Assembly: GCA_012520235.1 (NCBI GenBank)
Contig: JAAYOR010000121.1
Coordinates: forward strand, 1-35,386
Direction: 5' to 3'
DNA from: Fretibacterium sp.
GTDB lineage: Bacteria; Synergistota; Synergistia; Synergistales; Aminobacteriaceae
Length of the DNA stretch: 35,386 nucleotides
The position numbers and the translations under genes were made by a program. Under the pieces are notes generated by a model, which did no database searches, was not told the DNA's origin, and saw only the letters and a program-made list of their open reading frames with translations. Below, in pieces: positions 11,026-17,910 of the stretch. How positions within the stretch are numbered: position 1 is the first letter of the stretch; each line of letters starts with the position of its first letter.

Positions 11026-12087
11026 ATGCCATCCATGAAGACGGGCCGAGCCCTCAGAGGGGCCCTTACGGTAGGAGTTCTGTTTTTGTTCCTGGCCCTT
11101 TTCCCGTTCCGGGCGTGGGGGGACGGGCCCCGGCGCCTCTCTGTAGTTATCTTTCCGACGGAAAATACGACGGGGCTTGAGGTATGGGAGAGCAAGTATT
11201 ACCCTTACAATGTGCTGGAGCGAAAGATGTCGGATTACCTGGAGGTCCTGTTCAAGCGCTCTGCGCTCATTGACGTCCGCGTTCTGGACGAGAACGGGAT
11301 GAACCGATGGCTGAACGGCCCCAGGAAACCAGACGATATGGCCGTGCAGATGGAGCTCTTTGAGGCCCGCCTTAAGGAACGGGAGGTGATGGGCCGCGTC
11401 GACACCGGGACGGTCAACCTGCGTATGCGCCTCTTTGACGCCCGCAGGGCCGAGCAGTTTGCCACTCGCACAGCCTCTGGAGCGGACAGGCGCTACACTT
11501 TTGAAGGTGCTGAGAACCTTTACTGGATGGACGTTGCCTTTGTCTCGCTTCCGTTCCCTCTCAAGGGAGGGCTGGACCTTTTCGGGCTGACGGGCACGCG
11601 CGATCGGGGGCAGAGGATGAGCCGCCCCACCTGGAGCCAATTCCGGGACTCCTCGCACTGGCAGGCCATTCAAAATGCCATCTCGGATGCCTACGATCAG
11701 GCCATGGGCCAGGTCAGCGCCGCCATCCGGCGTAACGAGCCGGACGCGGAGGCTGAGGGGCGTGACTTCTTCTCCCCCTCCTTCACCACCGTGGGCCGCA
11801 TCATCTCCCCAACGGCGAACTCCAAGCGCAAGAGACGCGAGTACATCATATCCCTGGGGCGGCAGGACTCCATCCGAGTGGGTGACGTCCTTGAAGTGGT
11901 GCGCAGCGACACTTACGTGACGGTGGACCCGGAGCACCCTGTCGTCGTGCTCCCCAAGACCGTCGGAAAGGTCAAAGTCCTCTCCGTTCAGGAGAAGAAC
12001 GCGGTCGTGAGAGTTATACGCGATAACAAGAAGGAACCTATCCAGCTGAAAGACATCGTCATCAAGGTGACGGGACCGAGGAGCTGA
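11026..12087 (+). CDS. Exported protein of unknown function, possible FlgT-C-like terminal domain
   Basis: A Sec signal peptide is clear: Lys/Arg-rich start, then GALTVGVLFLFLALF and a cleavage region near PFRAWG. The mature protein begins RRLSVVIFPTENTTG, a beta-strand opening like that of periplasmic CsgG/LpoB-type proteins, but that is only a resemblance. The C-terminal 100 residues (GRQDSIRVGDVLEVVR ... GKVKVLSVQEKNAVVRVI) look like a small beta-barrel of the FlgT C-terminal kind. ATGs at 11026 and 11035 are both possible, since AAGGAG sits 3 and 12 bases away respectively. It is the first gene of a five-gene plus-strand run, 5 bases ahead of the next. Confidence 0.75.
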   Translation: MPSMKTGRALRGALTVGVLFLFLALFPFRAWGDGPRRLSVVIFPTENTTGLEVWESKYYPYNVLERKMSDYLEVLFKRSALIDVRVLDENGMNRWLNGPRKPDDMAVQMELFEARLKEREVMGRVDTGTVNLRMRLFDARRAEQFATRTASGADRRYTFEGAENLYWMDVAFVSLPFPLKGGLDLFGLTGTRDRGQRMSRPTWSQFRDSSHWQAIQNAISDAYDQAMGQVSAAIRRNEPDAEAEGRDFFSPSFTTVGRIISPTANSKRKRREYIISLGRQDSIRVGDVLEVVRSDTYVTVDPEHPVVVLPKTVGKVKVLSVQEKNAVVRVIRDNKKEPIQLKDIVIKVTGPRS

Positions 12088-12092
12088 AAACG

Positions 12093-12953
12093 ATGAGCAA
12101 GCTAACAGAGCATCCTGAGCGCGGGAAGAAGGCCCGACGCCGGTTCTTAAGAGCTCTGGTCGGAGCCCTTCTCCTCTGGGGGCTCGGGTCGGGCGGGACC
12201 TCGGCCTGGGCCAACGGAAACGTTTCGGCCGACGAGAAGCCTGCGCCTCCCATCAAAAAATCCGTGCGCAAGGCGCCGGTGAGAAGGCCGGTCAAAAAAG
12301 CGCCTGCCAAAAAGGCGACAAAAAAAGCGCCCGTAAAGTCCGTAAAAAAGGTGGAAAAGGCAGCGCCCAAGCTGACCTCGCTGCAGCGGGGTATTGCTCT
12401 GATGCAGCAGGAACGCTGTGAAAAGGCGCGCCCTTGGCTTCAAAAGGCAGTGCAGGAGGAGCGCCACAACCCCAATGCCTGGTACTGGTACGGGCTCTGT
12501 CACGAGAAGATGGGACAGTTCGAGCAGGCTCAGGTCTTCTTCACCAGGGCCCTGGACTGCGACCCGACCTTCCCGCCCCTCTCCCGTCTGGTGGCCTACC
12601 CGAGCGATGGAGAGCGTGTGCCACTGTGGGATCCTCTGCGTCCCGCACGGGTTTACCCCATTCCCACCGACGACCTTGGCATCGCCGTTATACCGCCTGA
12701 CGCACCTCAGGCCCGGCGGCGGCCCGCTCCGCCCCTGCCGGATCCGGAGCGGCCCAGGGTCCCCGTCTACATTCCTCCCGAGCCGGGCGCAATGCCTGAC
12801 ATGGGCAATCCCTGGCAGCCGGGTGTCTACGTGCCGCCTGGGCCGGGTGAGACCCTGCAGGACGGAGGGCCGGTTTACGTTCCTCCCGAGACCTGGATCG
12901 GGCCGGAGCCTTTACTTCAGGAGGCTCCTCCCCATGCGTCCCCTGGCCCCTGA
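12093..12953 (+). CDS. Exported TPR-like protein with Lys/Ala/Pro-rich linker and proline-rich tail
   Basis: The N-terminus has a twin-basic charged start and a hydrophobic core (FLRALVGALLLWGLG) with cleavage likely after SAWA near residue 40. Residues about 48-90 are a basic low-complexity linker rich in KKAP and KKAT, similar in composition to histone H1 tails. One or two tetratricopeptide units follow (about 95-165: MQQERCEKARPWLQKAV, NAWYWYGLCHEKMGQFEQAQ). The last 100 residues are proline-rich with three related units, VYIPPEPG, VYVPPGPG and VYVPPETW. It could bridge envelope layers: basic linker to anionic polymers, TPR to a partner. The GAGGAG overlapping the preceding stop serves as its ribosome site, so the two genes are coupled. 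Confidence 0.75.
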   Translation: MSKLTEHPERGKKARRRFLRALVGALLLWGLGSGGTSAWANGNVSADEKPAPPIKKSVRKAPVRRPVKKAPAKKATKKAPVKSVKKVEKAAPKLTSLQRGIALMQQERCEKARPWLQKAVQEERHNPNAWYWYGLCHEKMGQFEQAQVFFTRALDCDPTFPPLSRLVAYPSDGERVPLWDPLRPARVYPIPTDDLGIAVIPPDAPQARRRPAPPLPDPERPRVPVYIPPEPGAMPDMGNPWQPGVYVPPGPGETLQDGGPVYVPPETWIGPEPLLQEAPPHASPGP

Positions 12954-13021
12954 GAGGGGGAGCATAGGTCTATCTTAGGGAAGCGTTGGATGCGGAAAAC
13001 TGTGAAAGGAGAGATGTCTTG

Positions 13022-13831
13022 ATGGAACGCAAGACCTTGTGTGTCTTCCGAGGGCCCCTGGTTTTGTTGCTTGTTTCGGTGCTCTTCGTGGGAGCTCCTT
13101 CGGAGGCGGATGTCCTCATGGTCTGTCCCCCTACTCCTCTGTTGTTTCCCGCTCCTGTGGAGGTGGCGCCTGTGGCCAGCTGCAGGTCGCCTGCTGTTTC
13201 CTGGACCCCGGCGCTCCGGCAGCCCTTCGGCTTTTATCGAGCTCCCGTCTCTTGTCCCTATGTTGCCCCTCAAGCAAGGACACATACCTACGTCTGTGCC
13301 CCTGCCCTTTACCCTGCACCCTATGGCCTCTTTGTCCGTACACGGTGGGGTAGGGTTCCCTACGTTGTCCCTTACGCAAGGGCGTACGCCTATACAGTCC
13401 CGATTCTTCCGACCCACTACTCGTACTACCGACCACGCTGCGATGACTTCCGTGAGAGCTCCCTCTCTCAACCGACAGCTCTCCTGCCTGTGGTCCAGAG
13501 GATGGCAGTGAGCCCGAATCGTGATAAGAGGTTCCGGTTTCTGGCTATGGGGGGTTGGAACAATCACGTGGATAGGGCGGGGATGCTGCTCTCCCTCGGG
13601 CTTCCTGCTGCCTGGAAGGGCAGTCGCCCCAAGGTCATCTACGTCTGGACCGGTGACGACTGGTATCGCGTGAGGCCGAAGAAGATTCCCTTGGACCCCG
13701 CGAAGACCCTGAAGGTTGCCTCAGACGAGCTGACTCGTGTGATGAACCTGGGGGGCGGCTACTTCCCGGACGAGGAGCAGTGGGCCCGGCAGGTTGCGGC
13801 CTGGGGCTATACCTGGGCAGGGCAGCTTTAA
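13022..13831 (+). CDS. Exported Tyr/Pro-rich protein with shared C-terminal domain
   Basis: A signal peptide (GPLVLLLVSVLFVGAPSEA) is followed by about 110 residues rich in Pro, Tyr, Ala and Cys, with no recognised fold. The C-terminal domain (about residues 170-269, from FRFLAMGGW through AAWKGSRPKVIYVWTG to WGYTWAGQL) is clearly paralogous to the next gene's. The start is chosen by AGGAG 10 bases ahead of ATG 13022; a TTG at 13019 is equally possible, and longer readings have no site. An ATG at 13014 opens a two-codon frame whose TGA overlaps the real ATG. Function unknown. Confidence 0.72.
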   Translation: MERKTLCVFRGPLVLLLVSVLFVGAPSEADVLMVCPPTPLLFPAPVEVAPVASCRSPAVSWTPALRQPFGFYRAPVSCPYVAPQARTHTYVCAPALYPAPYGLFVRTRWGRVPYVVPYARAYAYTVPILPTHYSYYRPRCDDFRESSLSQPTALLPVVQRMAVSPNRDKRFRFLAMGGWNNHVDRAGMLLSLGLPAAWKGSRPKVIYVWTGDDWYRVRPKKIPLDPAKTLKVASDELTRVMNLGGGYFPDEEQWARQVAAWGYTWAGQL

Positions 13832-13900
13832 TAGAGAGGGACCCTCTGTAGCACGAATTTTTTTTGAAAGCTTTGAGAGCTTTGGGAGGATGAAGCGAGG

Positions 13901-14719
13901 ATGAAGAGCGAGAGAATGAGTTCGCTGAACACATGGCGGAGGCGATTTCTGCATTTGCTACCGCTCCTGGTTCTGGTGGCCGCAGGGCTGGGGTTTCCCT
14001 GCGAGGCAGAGGCCAAGGTTTACGTGGCCGAGCCTCTTCTGGTGGCACAGCCCGCTTATGCGGGGATGCGTTTTTACGTGTATCAGCCCTATGAGATGCC
14101 GAAGGGGTGGTACGTCACCTTTGACGGGTATGCGGTGAAGAAGAACGCGGACGGGGTGTGGGTCTATGGCACCATGTCGGGCCCTAACCTGACGCCGACC
14201 AACTACGTCGTGGGTTCGGTGGTCCCCTCCATGGCCGGACTATCGCCTTGGGCTCAGTCGCATCAGATATCGTCCATCATCTCGACCCAGGACCTTGCCT
14301 CGGCCGGGACCAGAAAGCTTGAGGTCTCGCAGCCCACCGGACTGAAGAGCCCGCAGGGCCTCCAGAAGGCCTATTCCACCTGGGTCCCCGATTGGACCTT
14401 CAATCCTCGATTCATGGCCATAGGCACCTGGCAGAAGACCGTGGATCGCATTGGCGTGCTGCACAACCCCGCCACCCCCGTGGCCTGGAAGGGGAACAGG
14501 CCTAAGGTCATCTACGTCTGGACCGGAAGCTCCTGGTACCAGGTGACTGTGAGGGAGAGCCAGCGTCCTGTGGACGCCCTGAAGAACCGCCTGTACGATC
14601 TGGTGCGCATGGTGAAGCGCACTCAGTTCGTCTGGTACGAACCGGATACGCCTGTCCTGGCTCAGCACGCCACGATGTGGGGGTATTACTGGATGGGGGA
14701 GGTCGTCCCTGCGCGATGA
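13901..14719 (+). CDS. Exported protein with shared C-terminal domain and internal GY module
   Basis: This protein of 272 residues has a signal peptide (FLHLLPLLVLVAAGLG, cleavage near EAEA). Residues about 69-94 (GWYVTFDGYAVKKNADGVW) match a module in the following gene. Residues about 169-270 (NPRFMAIGTWQKTVDRIGVL, VAWKGNRPKVIYVWTGSSWY, MWGYYWMGE) match the preceding gene's C-terminus, including the invariant WKG-RPKVIYVWTG core. The ATG at 13901 has GGGAGGA about 10 bases upstream; ATG 13916 is an alternative. The 69-base gap before it holds a short T-run but no convincing terminator. Family not recognised. Confidence 0.75.
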   Translation: MKSERMSSLNTWRRRFLHLLPLLVLVAAGLGFPCEAEAKVYVAEPLLVAQPAYAGMRFYVYQPYEMPKGWYVTFDGYAVKKNADGVWVYGTMSGPNLTPTNYVVGSVVPSMAGLSPWAQSHQISSIISTQDLASAGTRKLEVSQPTGLKSPQGLQKAYSTWVPDWTFNPRFMAIGTWQKTVDRIGVLHNPATPVAWKGNRPKVIYVWTGSSWYQVTVRESQRPVDALKNRLYDLVRMVKRTQFVWYEPDTPVLAQHATMWGYYWMGEVVPAR

Positions 14720-15066
14720 GGAGCCTTACATATCTCCAAGTCCTGGCGGTGTCCTTGGTTCTGATGTTTTCGTCGGCAGCCTTGGCCTTTGCTCCCTGGC
14801 CCTTCTCAGACCCGGCTCTGATAGCGCATCCGGACTGTGGGAACTCCTTCACGATGGACCTTCGCCCGCGCCGGAACCCTCAGACCCTCGGCACTCTGAC
14901 TGCGGACGGATACCCTGTGCTGCTGGACCGGCAGGGCGTCAAAGGACACTACGTGATGCCGCGCGGCTCGGATCTCCCGAACCCGGTCCGGGTGCCAAGC
15001 CTCTCCAGCGGCTATGGACACTTCTCCGGTGGGGACGGGCATTTCTCCGGCGGACGCGGATATTAG
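14716..15066 (+). CDS. Small exported protein with GY module and Gly-rich repeat tail
   Basis: This 116-residue protein starts at an ATG overlapping the previous stop by 4 bases (ATGA), so it is translationally coupled. A signal peptide spans residues 1-25 (LQVLAVSLVLMFSSAALA). Residues about 58-84 (LGTLTADGYPVLLDRQGVKG) echo the DGY module of the preceding protein. The C-terminus is a short glycine-rich repeat, GYGHFSGG / DGHFSGG / RGY. The longer reading from 14677 would lie inside the previous gene without a ribosome site. It closes the five-gene cluster. Function unknown. Confidence 0.72.
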   Translation: MRSLTYLQVLAVSLVLMFSSAALAFAPWPFSDPALIAHPDCGNSFTMDLRPRRNPQTLGTLTADGYPVLLDRQGVKGHYVMPRGSDLPNPVRVPSLSSGYGHFSGGDGHFSGGRGY

Positions 15067-15082
15067 ACAAATACACTCTTGA

Positions 15083-15128
15083 ATCGAATCAGGGCCCCAG
15101 CCATTACTTGACTGGGGCCCTGTTCGAT
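15083..15128. terminator. Long hairpin terminator between convergent operons
   Basis: CAGGGCCCCAG (15090-15100) pairs perfectly with CTGGGGCCCTG (15112-15122). An outer ATCGAA / TTCGAT extends the stem past one bulged T. It sits 16 bases after the exported-protein cluster and 14 bases after the converging chemoreceptor, and can serve both strands although the T-runs are poor. Confidence 0.75.
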
Positions 15129-15142
15129 CTTGCAAGGGGAGG

Positions 15143-17530
15143 TCATGAAGACTTGCGAGTCTTTGTCTTTTTCAGCAGTCTGTTCAGCCTTTTGATGACC
15201 TCGCCGGAGTGTTTTTCCAACTTTTTGAAATGCTCTGCTGCCTGACGGGCGTCCTTGCGCGCGTGGGCTGCGACTGCGAGGCGAGCCTGCTCGTGTGCCG
15301 TCTGACGGGCGGTTTCGATGCTCTTGAAGCGAAGGTCCTTACTCAGGGGGCTGTCGGGTGAGCAGTGTGACAGTTCGAAGGCGGACTGTCCGGAGGGGAT
15401 TTTCTCCTCAGAGTGGGAGGAAGGTTTTCCCTTCAGCATGTTGGCGATGTGGATCTTCAGGAGCAGCTGGTCGGATTTGGCCTGCCTGAACCTCTCTTCG
15501 TCGGAGAGCTCTGACGGCGCGTCAGGCAGCTGGAAGAGGGAGACCTTGTCTCCCAGCTCCGTTGCTATGGAGCTGAGTTCCTGAGTCCGGGCGCTGATGT
15601 CTATGGCCGAGCTGCTGACCTCTTCGGTCATGGCGGAGACCTCCTCCGCTCTCTCCGCGCTCTCGTCCAGGCTTTTAAGGAGACCTTCTATCATCTTGAC
15701 GAGCTGTCTGGAGTTCTCCTCCTCGGACTGGGCCATCTCGACCATCTCCTGGATGGCCGAGCCTGTCTCGTGGGTCGCCCCGGAGATGGCCTCAAGAGCT
15801 TTGACGGTCCGCTCCACGGTGGCGAACCCGTTTTCGACCTCGACGCGGTTTTTTTGGATGCTCTCCATGGCGCCTGCGGTGTTCTCCACGATGCGGGCCA
15901 CAAGCTCCGCAACCTGGGAGGCGCCTTTGTTGGACTCCTCAGCGAGCTGGCGCACCTCGTCCGCCACGACGGCGAAACCCTTTCCGGCCTCTCCTGCCCG
16001 CGTCGCCTCAATGGCAGCGTTGAGCGCCAGGAAGTTGGTCTGGCGGGCAATGGAGGTTATGGTCTCCGTGATGTTGGAGATGCGGCGCGAGTTCTCCTCA
16101 AGGATCTGCATCAACCGCTCCGTATCCTCGCTGAGATCTTTTGCTCTGTCCATGGCCTCTACGGCTTCGGCTGCAATTTTACGGCCGGACTCAGCGGTCC
16201 TCAAGGTCTCCTGCGAGCTCTCAAGGACCGATTGCCCCTTATGGAAGGTGGCGGCTATCAGGCTGGCCAGCTCCTGAAGTTTGCCGGTGGCGGTCTCAGC
16301 GAGGTCCCTGCCCTTCCTCATGAGCTGTGAGACCGAATCGACGCTGGCTGCAGCCTCCTCTGTAGCGGCAGTCACCTCCATTGTGGTGTTAGCTATCTCC
16401 TGTGATGCATGCTGGACGAAATCGGACGACTCCCGAATTTGCCTCACTGTAGCAGCCTGCTGTTGTGTCATCTGATTAAAGGTGGCCGTCAGTTCAGCTA
16501 GCTCTCCGTCGGACATGACCTCGGCGTGGGCGGAGAGGTCGCCGCTCTCAACGCGGGTCATCGCGAGTCTCAGGCGGAGCAGAGGACGGGTGATGGAGTT
16601 GACGAACGGCCAGCAGGCGAGCATGAAGAGCAGAAGAAGGGAGACGCCTATGATGAGAGTGGAGTTGATGGCCGACCTCCGGACGGCTGCGACCTGGTCG
16701 TAAGAGAGGCTGGACTCCAGGGCCCCCACGACGGTTCCGTCGGTACCGACGAGGGGCGTGAACACGCTGTGATGGGAGGCCCCCAGCTCAGGGTCTTCGG
16801 CGTGCAGGATGGGAGCTGGAGTTTTCGCGGGTTTACCGGTGGGAAAGAGTTCCTGAGAGAGGGGGGTCACGAGGCGTTTACCACTCTCTTCAAGGGTTGA
16901 GGAGGAGATGCGGTCTTTGCCGGCAAAGAAGGAGAATACCCCACCGGTCATCTTGCAGGCTTCGTCCACGATGGAGTTTGAGCTGATCGTGTAGCCGGTG
17001 GAAAGGGCGCCGATGATGTCTCCGAAGGCGTTGTGTACAGGAGCGCCCGCGCGCAGGGAGAGCTTGACGACAGCCCCCTCCTCGATGCCGACAGTCTCTT
17101 CGCCGGCCAGGGCGCGCTGGATGTTCCACTGGTTGTAGATGTTGTCATCCTTGGCCGGGATCTCGTCAGGGCGGTGAGCCCGGTACAGCACGCGTCCCTC
17201 TGAGTTGGTGACGACGAGATACTCCATGCCCGACTGTTCCAGCAACGGCTGGAGGGTCTTCTGGAGGAGATTGAAGTCCGCAAACTCTACGGCCTGAGCG
17301 ACGTCCTTGCGCGTGGAGAGGGTTTTGGCGGAATGCAGAGACTCTTGTTTTCGCATGTTCATGATGGAGAGGATCGCTTGTAGATTATCCTGGGCTTTTT
17401 CAGCCAGCTGTTCGTTCAACAGGCGCTTGGAGACATTGATTCCTCCGGCCGAGACCAGCGTGATAGCTGTTACGCTCAAGACTCCGACAAAAAACATCAG
17501 GCGCTGCCGGACAGTTTTCAGGTATCGCAT
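15143..17530 (-). CDS. Methyl-accepting chemotaxis protein with Cache sensor and degenerate CZB-like C-terminus
   Basis: This full-length chemoreceptor has about 795 residues. An N-terminal membrane helix ([20 protein letters not shown]) is followed by a large periplasmic double-Cache-type sensor (about 40-290, including [16 protein letters not shown] and [11 protein letters not shown]). A second membrane helix ([20 protein letters not shown]), a HAMP domain and the coiled-coil signalling region with [20 protein letters not shown] come next. After the signalling part, about 110 residues resemble a chemoreceptor zinc-binding (CZB) domain with lost ligands. The ATG at 17530 has GAGG 9 bases ahead; starts at 17539 and 17545 overlap that site. 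It is transcribed alone, converging on the exported-protein cluster. Confidence 0.93.
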
Positions 17531-17910
17531 CCCAATCATCCTCACAATTCATTTATAGTTTTCTGAAAAAGTAATGAGGAAGTACACAAGAAAATATATA
17601 AAAAGATGAAAAGCAGTTAAAGACGATAGAAAAACAAAATAAAAGTTAAGAAATGGAGTCAATCCCAATTCTTTCATTCTATCACAGGCTGATTTTCCTG
17701 TGCATATATTTATTCCATCTCCAACCTGAAGTTGCCTCCATCCCCCTGTATCTCGCCATGTTTCCGGGATTCCTGGAGGAGGATATACCATCCAGTTCTA
17801 AGGAAACGCTTGTTAAATCAACGGTGCATTAGTGGTTTTGATGGGATAAAATGAAGGTCGTCGACGGGGCTTCTCGGAGGCTTGTAAAAATCTTTCTAAA
17901 GGAGGTACGC
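17531..17910. other. AT-rich divergent intergenic region
   Basis: These 380 bases separate the chemoreceptor from the kinase gene and hold no credible ORF. The first 150 are very AT-rich and must contain the chemoreceptor promoter. A minus-strand TTTAAC, 17-base spacer and TATATT (about 17615-17590) is possible but weak. Near 17845, ATAAAAT could be a -10 for the kinase gene without a clear -35. Confidence 0.35.

Follow-up and report, generated by a model that had tools for sequence, protein, structure and literature searches.

What do the five exported proteins encoded side by side in this stretch of Synergistota DNA form together, and which structure of the cell do they serve? The window, by which we mean the whole 35,386-nucleotide stretch that was analysed, lies on contig 60 of a 2.33-Mb Synergistota genome (G000) whose named relatives are Synergistaceae/Synergistales genomes. 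P1 to P5 are five (+) strand open reading frames that make up one co-directional operon, and this operon is kept within Synergistota (Table 1). The gap between P1 and P2 is 5 bp, the gaps on either side of P3 are 68–69 bp, and P4 and P5 overlap in an ATGA. As judged by eye from the sequence, the N-terminus of each protein is a hydrophobic, signal-peptide-like segment. Beyond P5 is a perfect inverted repeat that is terminator-like, without a clear T run; it was not reported by a terminator scan, and an Rfam scan of the window gave no match. The repeat lies between P5 and the operon's convergent neighbour, a chemoreceptor gene (sCache, HAMP and MCPsignal domains; 15143-17545, (−) strand). A desulfoferrodoxin gene also adjoins the operon in G000.

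Table 1. Features of the P1–P5 operon, in positions of the window
Feature	Position	Strand	Description
P1	11026..12087	+	FlgT-like exported protein, 353 aa; opening gene of the operon
FlgT_C domain of P1, residues 273-347	11842..12066	+	PF16538 match, AF2 model
P2	12093..12953	+	Exported TPR protein; N-terminal Lys-rich KKAP linker, C-terminal YVPPxPG repeats
TPR region of P2, residues 97-168	12381..12596	+	TPR_2 match
P3	13022..13831	+	Exported WKG-domain protein; TTG at 12986 is an alternative start
WKG / WGYxWxG domain of P3, C-terminal	13451..13828	+	Alignment to P4
P4	13901..14719	+	Exported, DGY module and WKG domain; most widespread unnamed member
DGY module of P4, residues ~43-110	14027..14230	+	Alignment; six predicted strands
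WKG domain of P4, residues ~162-268	14384..14704	+	Four strands, helices, last strand (model)
P5	14716..15066	+	Small exported DGY protein, Gly-rich tail
Perfect 11-bp inverted repeat, CAGGGCCCCAG...CTGGGGCCCTG	15090..15122		Read from sequence

The initial annotation had held that none of the domains in this cluster could be named. This does not hold for P1, whose C-terminus matches FlgT_C in Pfam (PF16538, 1.8e-12, above the cut-off), and the same match is present in all 20 of 20 P1 orthologues. FlgT_N and FlgT_M gave no Pfam match in the window's P1 or in any of the 20 orthologues. P1 is the best conserved member of the operon, with 46–67% identity between the window protein and its orthologues. 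An AF2 model of P1, built from three sequences, was best in FlgT_C (pLDDT mostly about 75–85) and poor outside it, with a mean pLDDT of 46. When this low-confidence model was compared with the PDB by Foldseek, the best match was Vibrio FlgT (3w1e, E = 1.3e-6, 348 columns) and the second a chain of the LPHT ring (8z5n, E = 5.1e-6, 345 columns). These were the sole PDB matches below 0.001 for the weak model, at a TM of about 0.2 to FlgT and about 11% identity in the structural alignment.

For P2, the TPR that had been read from the sequence was borne out by Pfam (TPR_2, PF07719, 1.2e-10), and the KKAP linker, the PP repeats and the Gly-rich tail named alongside it are visible in the sequences; the Lys-rich linker and YVPPxPG repeats of P2 are also seen in the alignment of its orthologues. 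The one sequence match of P2 to a family of flagellar TPR scaffolds, FlcA in NCBIfam (E = 0.035), reflects generic TPR similarity. P2 likewise shares TPR similarity with MamA and PilW-type proteins in NCBIfam, but falls far under the curated cut-offs (44 versus 200 bits and 30 versus 154 bits), and neither a magnetosome nor a pilus context was seen.

The last three proteins are built from two modules. The C-terminal domain noticed in the third and fourth proteins, here called WKG, was confirmed at 40% identity over 134 residues between P3 and P4 (E = 1e-21). A DGY module had also been assigned to both P4 and P5; when the two window proteins were compared, the similarity was not significant (E = 7.7), but P5-like proteins elsewhere match the P4 profile (L056, 8e-18; L039, 2e-5; L073, 3.5e-11), and the assignment stands by way of these relatives. 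In the P3 of G000, Pro/Tyr/Ala-rich sequence takes the place of the N-terminal DGY module. Confidence in the AF2 model of P4 was fair to good for the WKG domain (pLDDT mostly 80–93), with a pLDDT of about 55–83 in the DGY module, and the family alignment shows invariant W, G and Y positions in the WKG domain. Neither the window's P3–P5 (Pfam, NCBIfam) nor the 28-member P3/P4 family (Pfam) yielded a significant or meaningful family match, in keeping with the earlier description of these proteins as undescribed, as far as the libraries searched extend. Two candidate routes to a known fold were rejected: the best PDB match for the P4 model reached only E = 0.25, and a PDB sequence-profile search with the 28 family members gave no convincing match. 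Known S-layer or adhesin domains were not found in P1–P5 by Pfam or NCBIfam.

A third, diverged DGY+WKG paralogue is encoded away from the operon, on contig 53 of G000 (13820-14689, (−) strand; L003, L037). In relatives, a TPR-like gene follows this dispersed paralogue (L160-L164, L168), so that the pairing with a TPR protein recurs. The contig (C53) also carries flgFG-flgA-flgHI-flgJ; we rejected the P4 paralogue there as neighbourhood evidence because it sits elsewhere in relatives, and its nearness to those genes is thus probably chance.

To place the operon among relatives, we compared 24 loci, most of them selected for holding a P4 relative. P1 orthologues were present at 20 and P2 orthologues at 21. 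The four loci without P1 include one on a cut contig, one at a contig edge and that of the dispersed paralogue. The recurring order is P1-P2-(P3)-P4-(P5), in which P3 is often missing and P5 occurs in part of the genomes, in several others directly after P4. P1–P2 adjacency spans families f1 to f11, and since the pair is also present in families f3, f4, f6 and f11, P1 and P2 look like the oldest core of the operon. Family f4 shows a fusion of the WKG domain with the TPR protein (L058 6283-7575 and L059 7773-9143; about 1e-17 to the P2 profile and about 1e-35 to the P4 profile), and in the f4 genomes listed the P4 profile match is confined to this fused domain. Such a fusion suggests contact between P2 and the WKG domain in their work. 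By profile search, 106 of 188 Synergistota genomes hold a P3/P4-type match. Gene order, which the initial annotation had put forward as a check, is therefore conserved in relatives, and its proposal of one envelope assembly agrees with a co-inherited set of exported proteins that has shared modules and a kept order. Two further genes were observed beside members of the operon. Genus g16, from the gut, has a gene of ~390–420 aa directly before P1 (L034, L035, L045, L048, L050, L052), without a Pfam match in the two copies scanned, and in G131 a gene for a PDZ-domain protein is just upstream of a separate P4 gene (L062 8684-9436).

We found that P1 is distributed with flagella. Across the 188 genomes, we searched for P1 with a profile of 20 members and for flagella with FliG_C, FlgH and, for exceptions, FlhA; four FliG-negative genomes were counted as flagellated because they have FlgH and FlhA (G006, G022), FlhA (G157) or FlgH (G091). 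P1 and flagella occurred together in 123 genomes, P1 only in 2, flagella only in 10 and neither in 53 (Fisher 7e-34, with related genomes counted as independent). Both P1-only genomes are incomplete, at 64% and 65%. The corresponding counts for P4 were 104, 2, 29 and 53. A control with the neighbouring desulfoferrodoxin gene showed no association (107/47/26/8, p = 0.53); P1 was absent from 53 of the 55 genomes without flagellar markers, while this gene is kept. Contrasts within genera are independent of the relatedness problem that affects the Fisher value: P1 and flagella are jointly missing in G005 (congeners G023/G033 have both), in G038 (G002/G021/G031/G042 have both) and in G077/G096 (G068/G084/G100 have both). 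A search of the same 188 genomes for FlgO gave only 2 weak matches, none of them in G000, and FlgO is thus essentially absent from Synergistota. In G004 the flagellin N-terminal domain was matched 20 times, and several of these matches fall in open frames that are 800-2000 codons long.

Core flagellar genes do not adjoin the operon in the genomes examined, with the exception of G006 (L042, C1:1806290-1818000). There, flhA, a PilZ-type gene, cheB and cheA come after P1-P2-P4-P5, an arrangement that is suggestive and has N-filled assembly gaps between the two groups of genes.

The regions upstream of P1 provided a second line of evidence. GCCGATA occurs in 18 of 44 of them, where 0.8 would be expected; none of 1000 shuffles gave more than 4, and the reverse strand gave 1. 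The longer pattern TAAGN15-17GCCGATAA has 6 sites in 12 genomes. The 4 sites before P1 had served in choosing the pattern, and the other 2, just upstream of fliD, had not; the exact-site count of 6 does not exceed that of a reversed-pattern control (5), and only the positions are informative. GCCGATA is also present in 6 of 17 fliD upstreams (0.4 expected). The box resembles the sigma28 (FliA) consensus of other bacteria. We rejected GCCGATAA as proof of sigma28, as the flagellin upstreams, our first positive control, were without the box: its exact form was absent from the 16-18 flagellin genes examined (0/18 upstreams in one scan). For this reason fliD was taken as the independent training set and the motif termed fliD-type. 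When a weight matrix was built from fliD sites alone, with random windows from the same loci as background, 19 of 45 P1 upstreams scored at p<0.01, where 0.45 would be expected. The window's own P1 has no recognisable fliD-type promoter by this matrix (p = 0.79). The leaders of several Synergistota flagellin genes (L097-L123) share GGA-containing motifs, CGGACGTAAA and ACAGGGAGG, and could be under CsrA-type control.

Together, we consider it very probable that the P1–P5 operon is linked to the flagellum in Synergistota. The initial annotation had favoured a surface layer or adhesive structure, and a generic envelope, S-layer or adhesive assembly unrelated to the flagellum would accommodate proteins that are all exported, proline-rich or repetitive and have modules in common, as well as an operon that, G006 excepted, is not adjacent to core flagellar genes in the genomes examined. 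We regard such an assembly as highly improbable, as P1 carries a named FlgT domain and a FlgT-like fold match, is missing from nearly all non-flagellated genomes while the unrelated neighbour gene is kept, tracks flagella where that control does not, and is in many cases preceded by a fliD-type promoter. It is also very unlikely that the operon encodes an envelope system of its own, such as a chemosensory accessory, merely co-lost with flagella as lineages become non-motile. Co-loss by itself cannot tell a part of the flagellum from something used together with it, and the convergent neighbour is a chemoreceptor gene; that gene, however, is on the opposite strand, and the FlgT_C domain and FlgT fold match of P1 speak against this reading.

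A closer contender is a role at the flagellum other than in a ring: P1–P5 could be assembly factors (periplasmic chaperones, or helpers of export or of cell-wall opening), or a sheath or outer-membrane rim active only in filament growth. The same co-occurrence and fliD-type promoters speak for this, fliD being a gene of filament growth. TPR proteins such as P2 are often chaperones or scaffolds, and the P4 model is without a structural match. P1, however, resembles FlgT, which in Vibrio is a ring component and not a chaperone (PMC6375700), and we hold a non-ring role to be rather unlikely. A structural flagellar ring or collar, H-ring-like and with new partners, is in our assessment the probable function of the operon.

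In Vibrio, FlgO, FlgP and FlgT make up an H-ring that surrounds the L-ring, and both the H- and T-rings depend on FlgT (PMC6375700). P1 is like Vibrio FlgT (3w1e; LPHT ring 8z5n) in being exported, in its FlgT_C domain and in the 348-column match of its low-confidence model, and like a flagellar FlgT in being nearly confined to the flagellated genomes of its phylum; it is unlike Vibrio FlgT in the missing Pfam matches to FlgT_N and FlgT_M and in the low identity of the structural alignment. The operon also departs from the Vibrio H-ring in that the usual partner FlgO is missing in Synergistota and P1 is instead encoded with TPR and WKG/DGY proteins. Periplasmic TPR proteins are found beside the rings of other flagellar motors, for example PflA, FlcB and MotC/MotK (PMC13023049). 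Like these, P2 is exported, contains TPR and is tied to flagella, here by operon and distribution; unlike them, its TPR is only about 70 residues long and is joined by a Lys-rich linker and proline repeats.

From these comparisons we infer the ring location, direct contacts and mechanical role of P1–P5, in a flagellum-associated periplasmic module of Synergistota. P1 would be the FlgT-like component and would probably encircle the P/L rings at the outer membrane, in the manner of FlgT in the Vibrio H-ring. P2 would serve as a scaffold of the TPR type: with its basic linker and proline repeats it could bind the cell wall or reach across it, and could connect P1 with P3–P5. The small, beta-rich WKG/DGY proteins P3–P5 would probably decorate or close the ring, replacing partners such as FlgO. 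Such an assembly would reinforce the stator scaffold, the outer-membrane bushing or both. More tentatively, P2–P5 may give the Synergistota motor a periplasmic ring, collar or disk not described before, on a FlgT-like base, an independent elaboration whose WKG and DGY modules have yet to be seen in a solved structure.

Most known examples of extra rings, disks and scaffolds of the motor come from Proteobacteria, Campylobacterota and spirochaetes (PMC13023049), and in a literature search that left most subscription journals outside we found no paper on the Synergistota motor or its FlgT. A FlgT-type ring is known; what would be new here is the set of flagellar partners of a FlgT-like P1, including three unnamed protein types. 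The flagellar reading offers those three unannotated types, P3–P5, a function open to test, and it predicts for Synergistota motors an extra density that can be sought by cryo-ET. If it is true, periplasmic reinforcement of the motor would be older, or more often reinvented, than thought.
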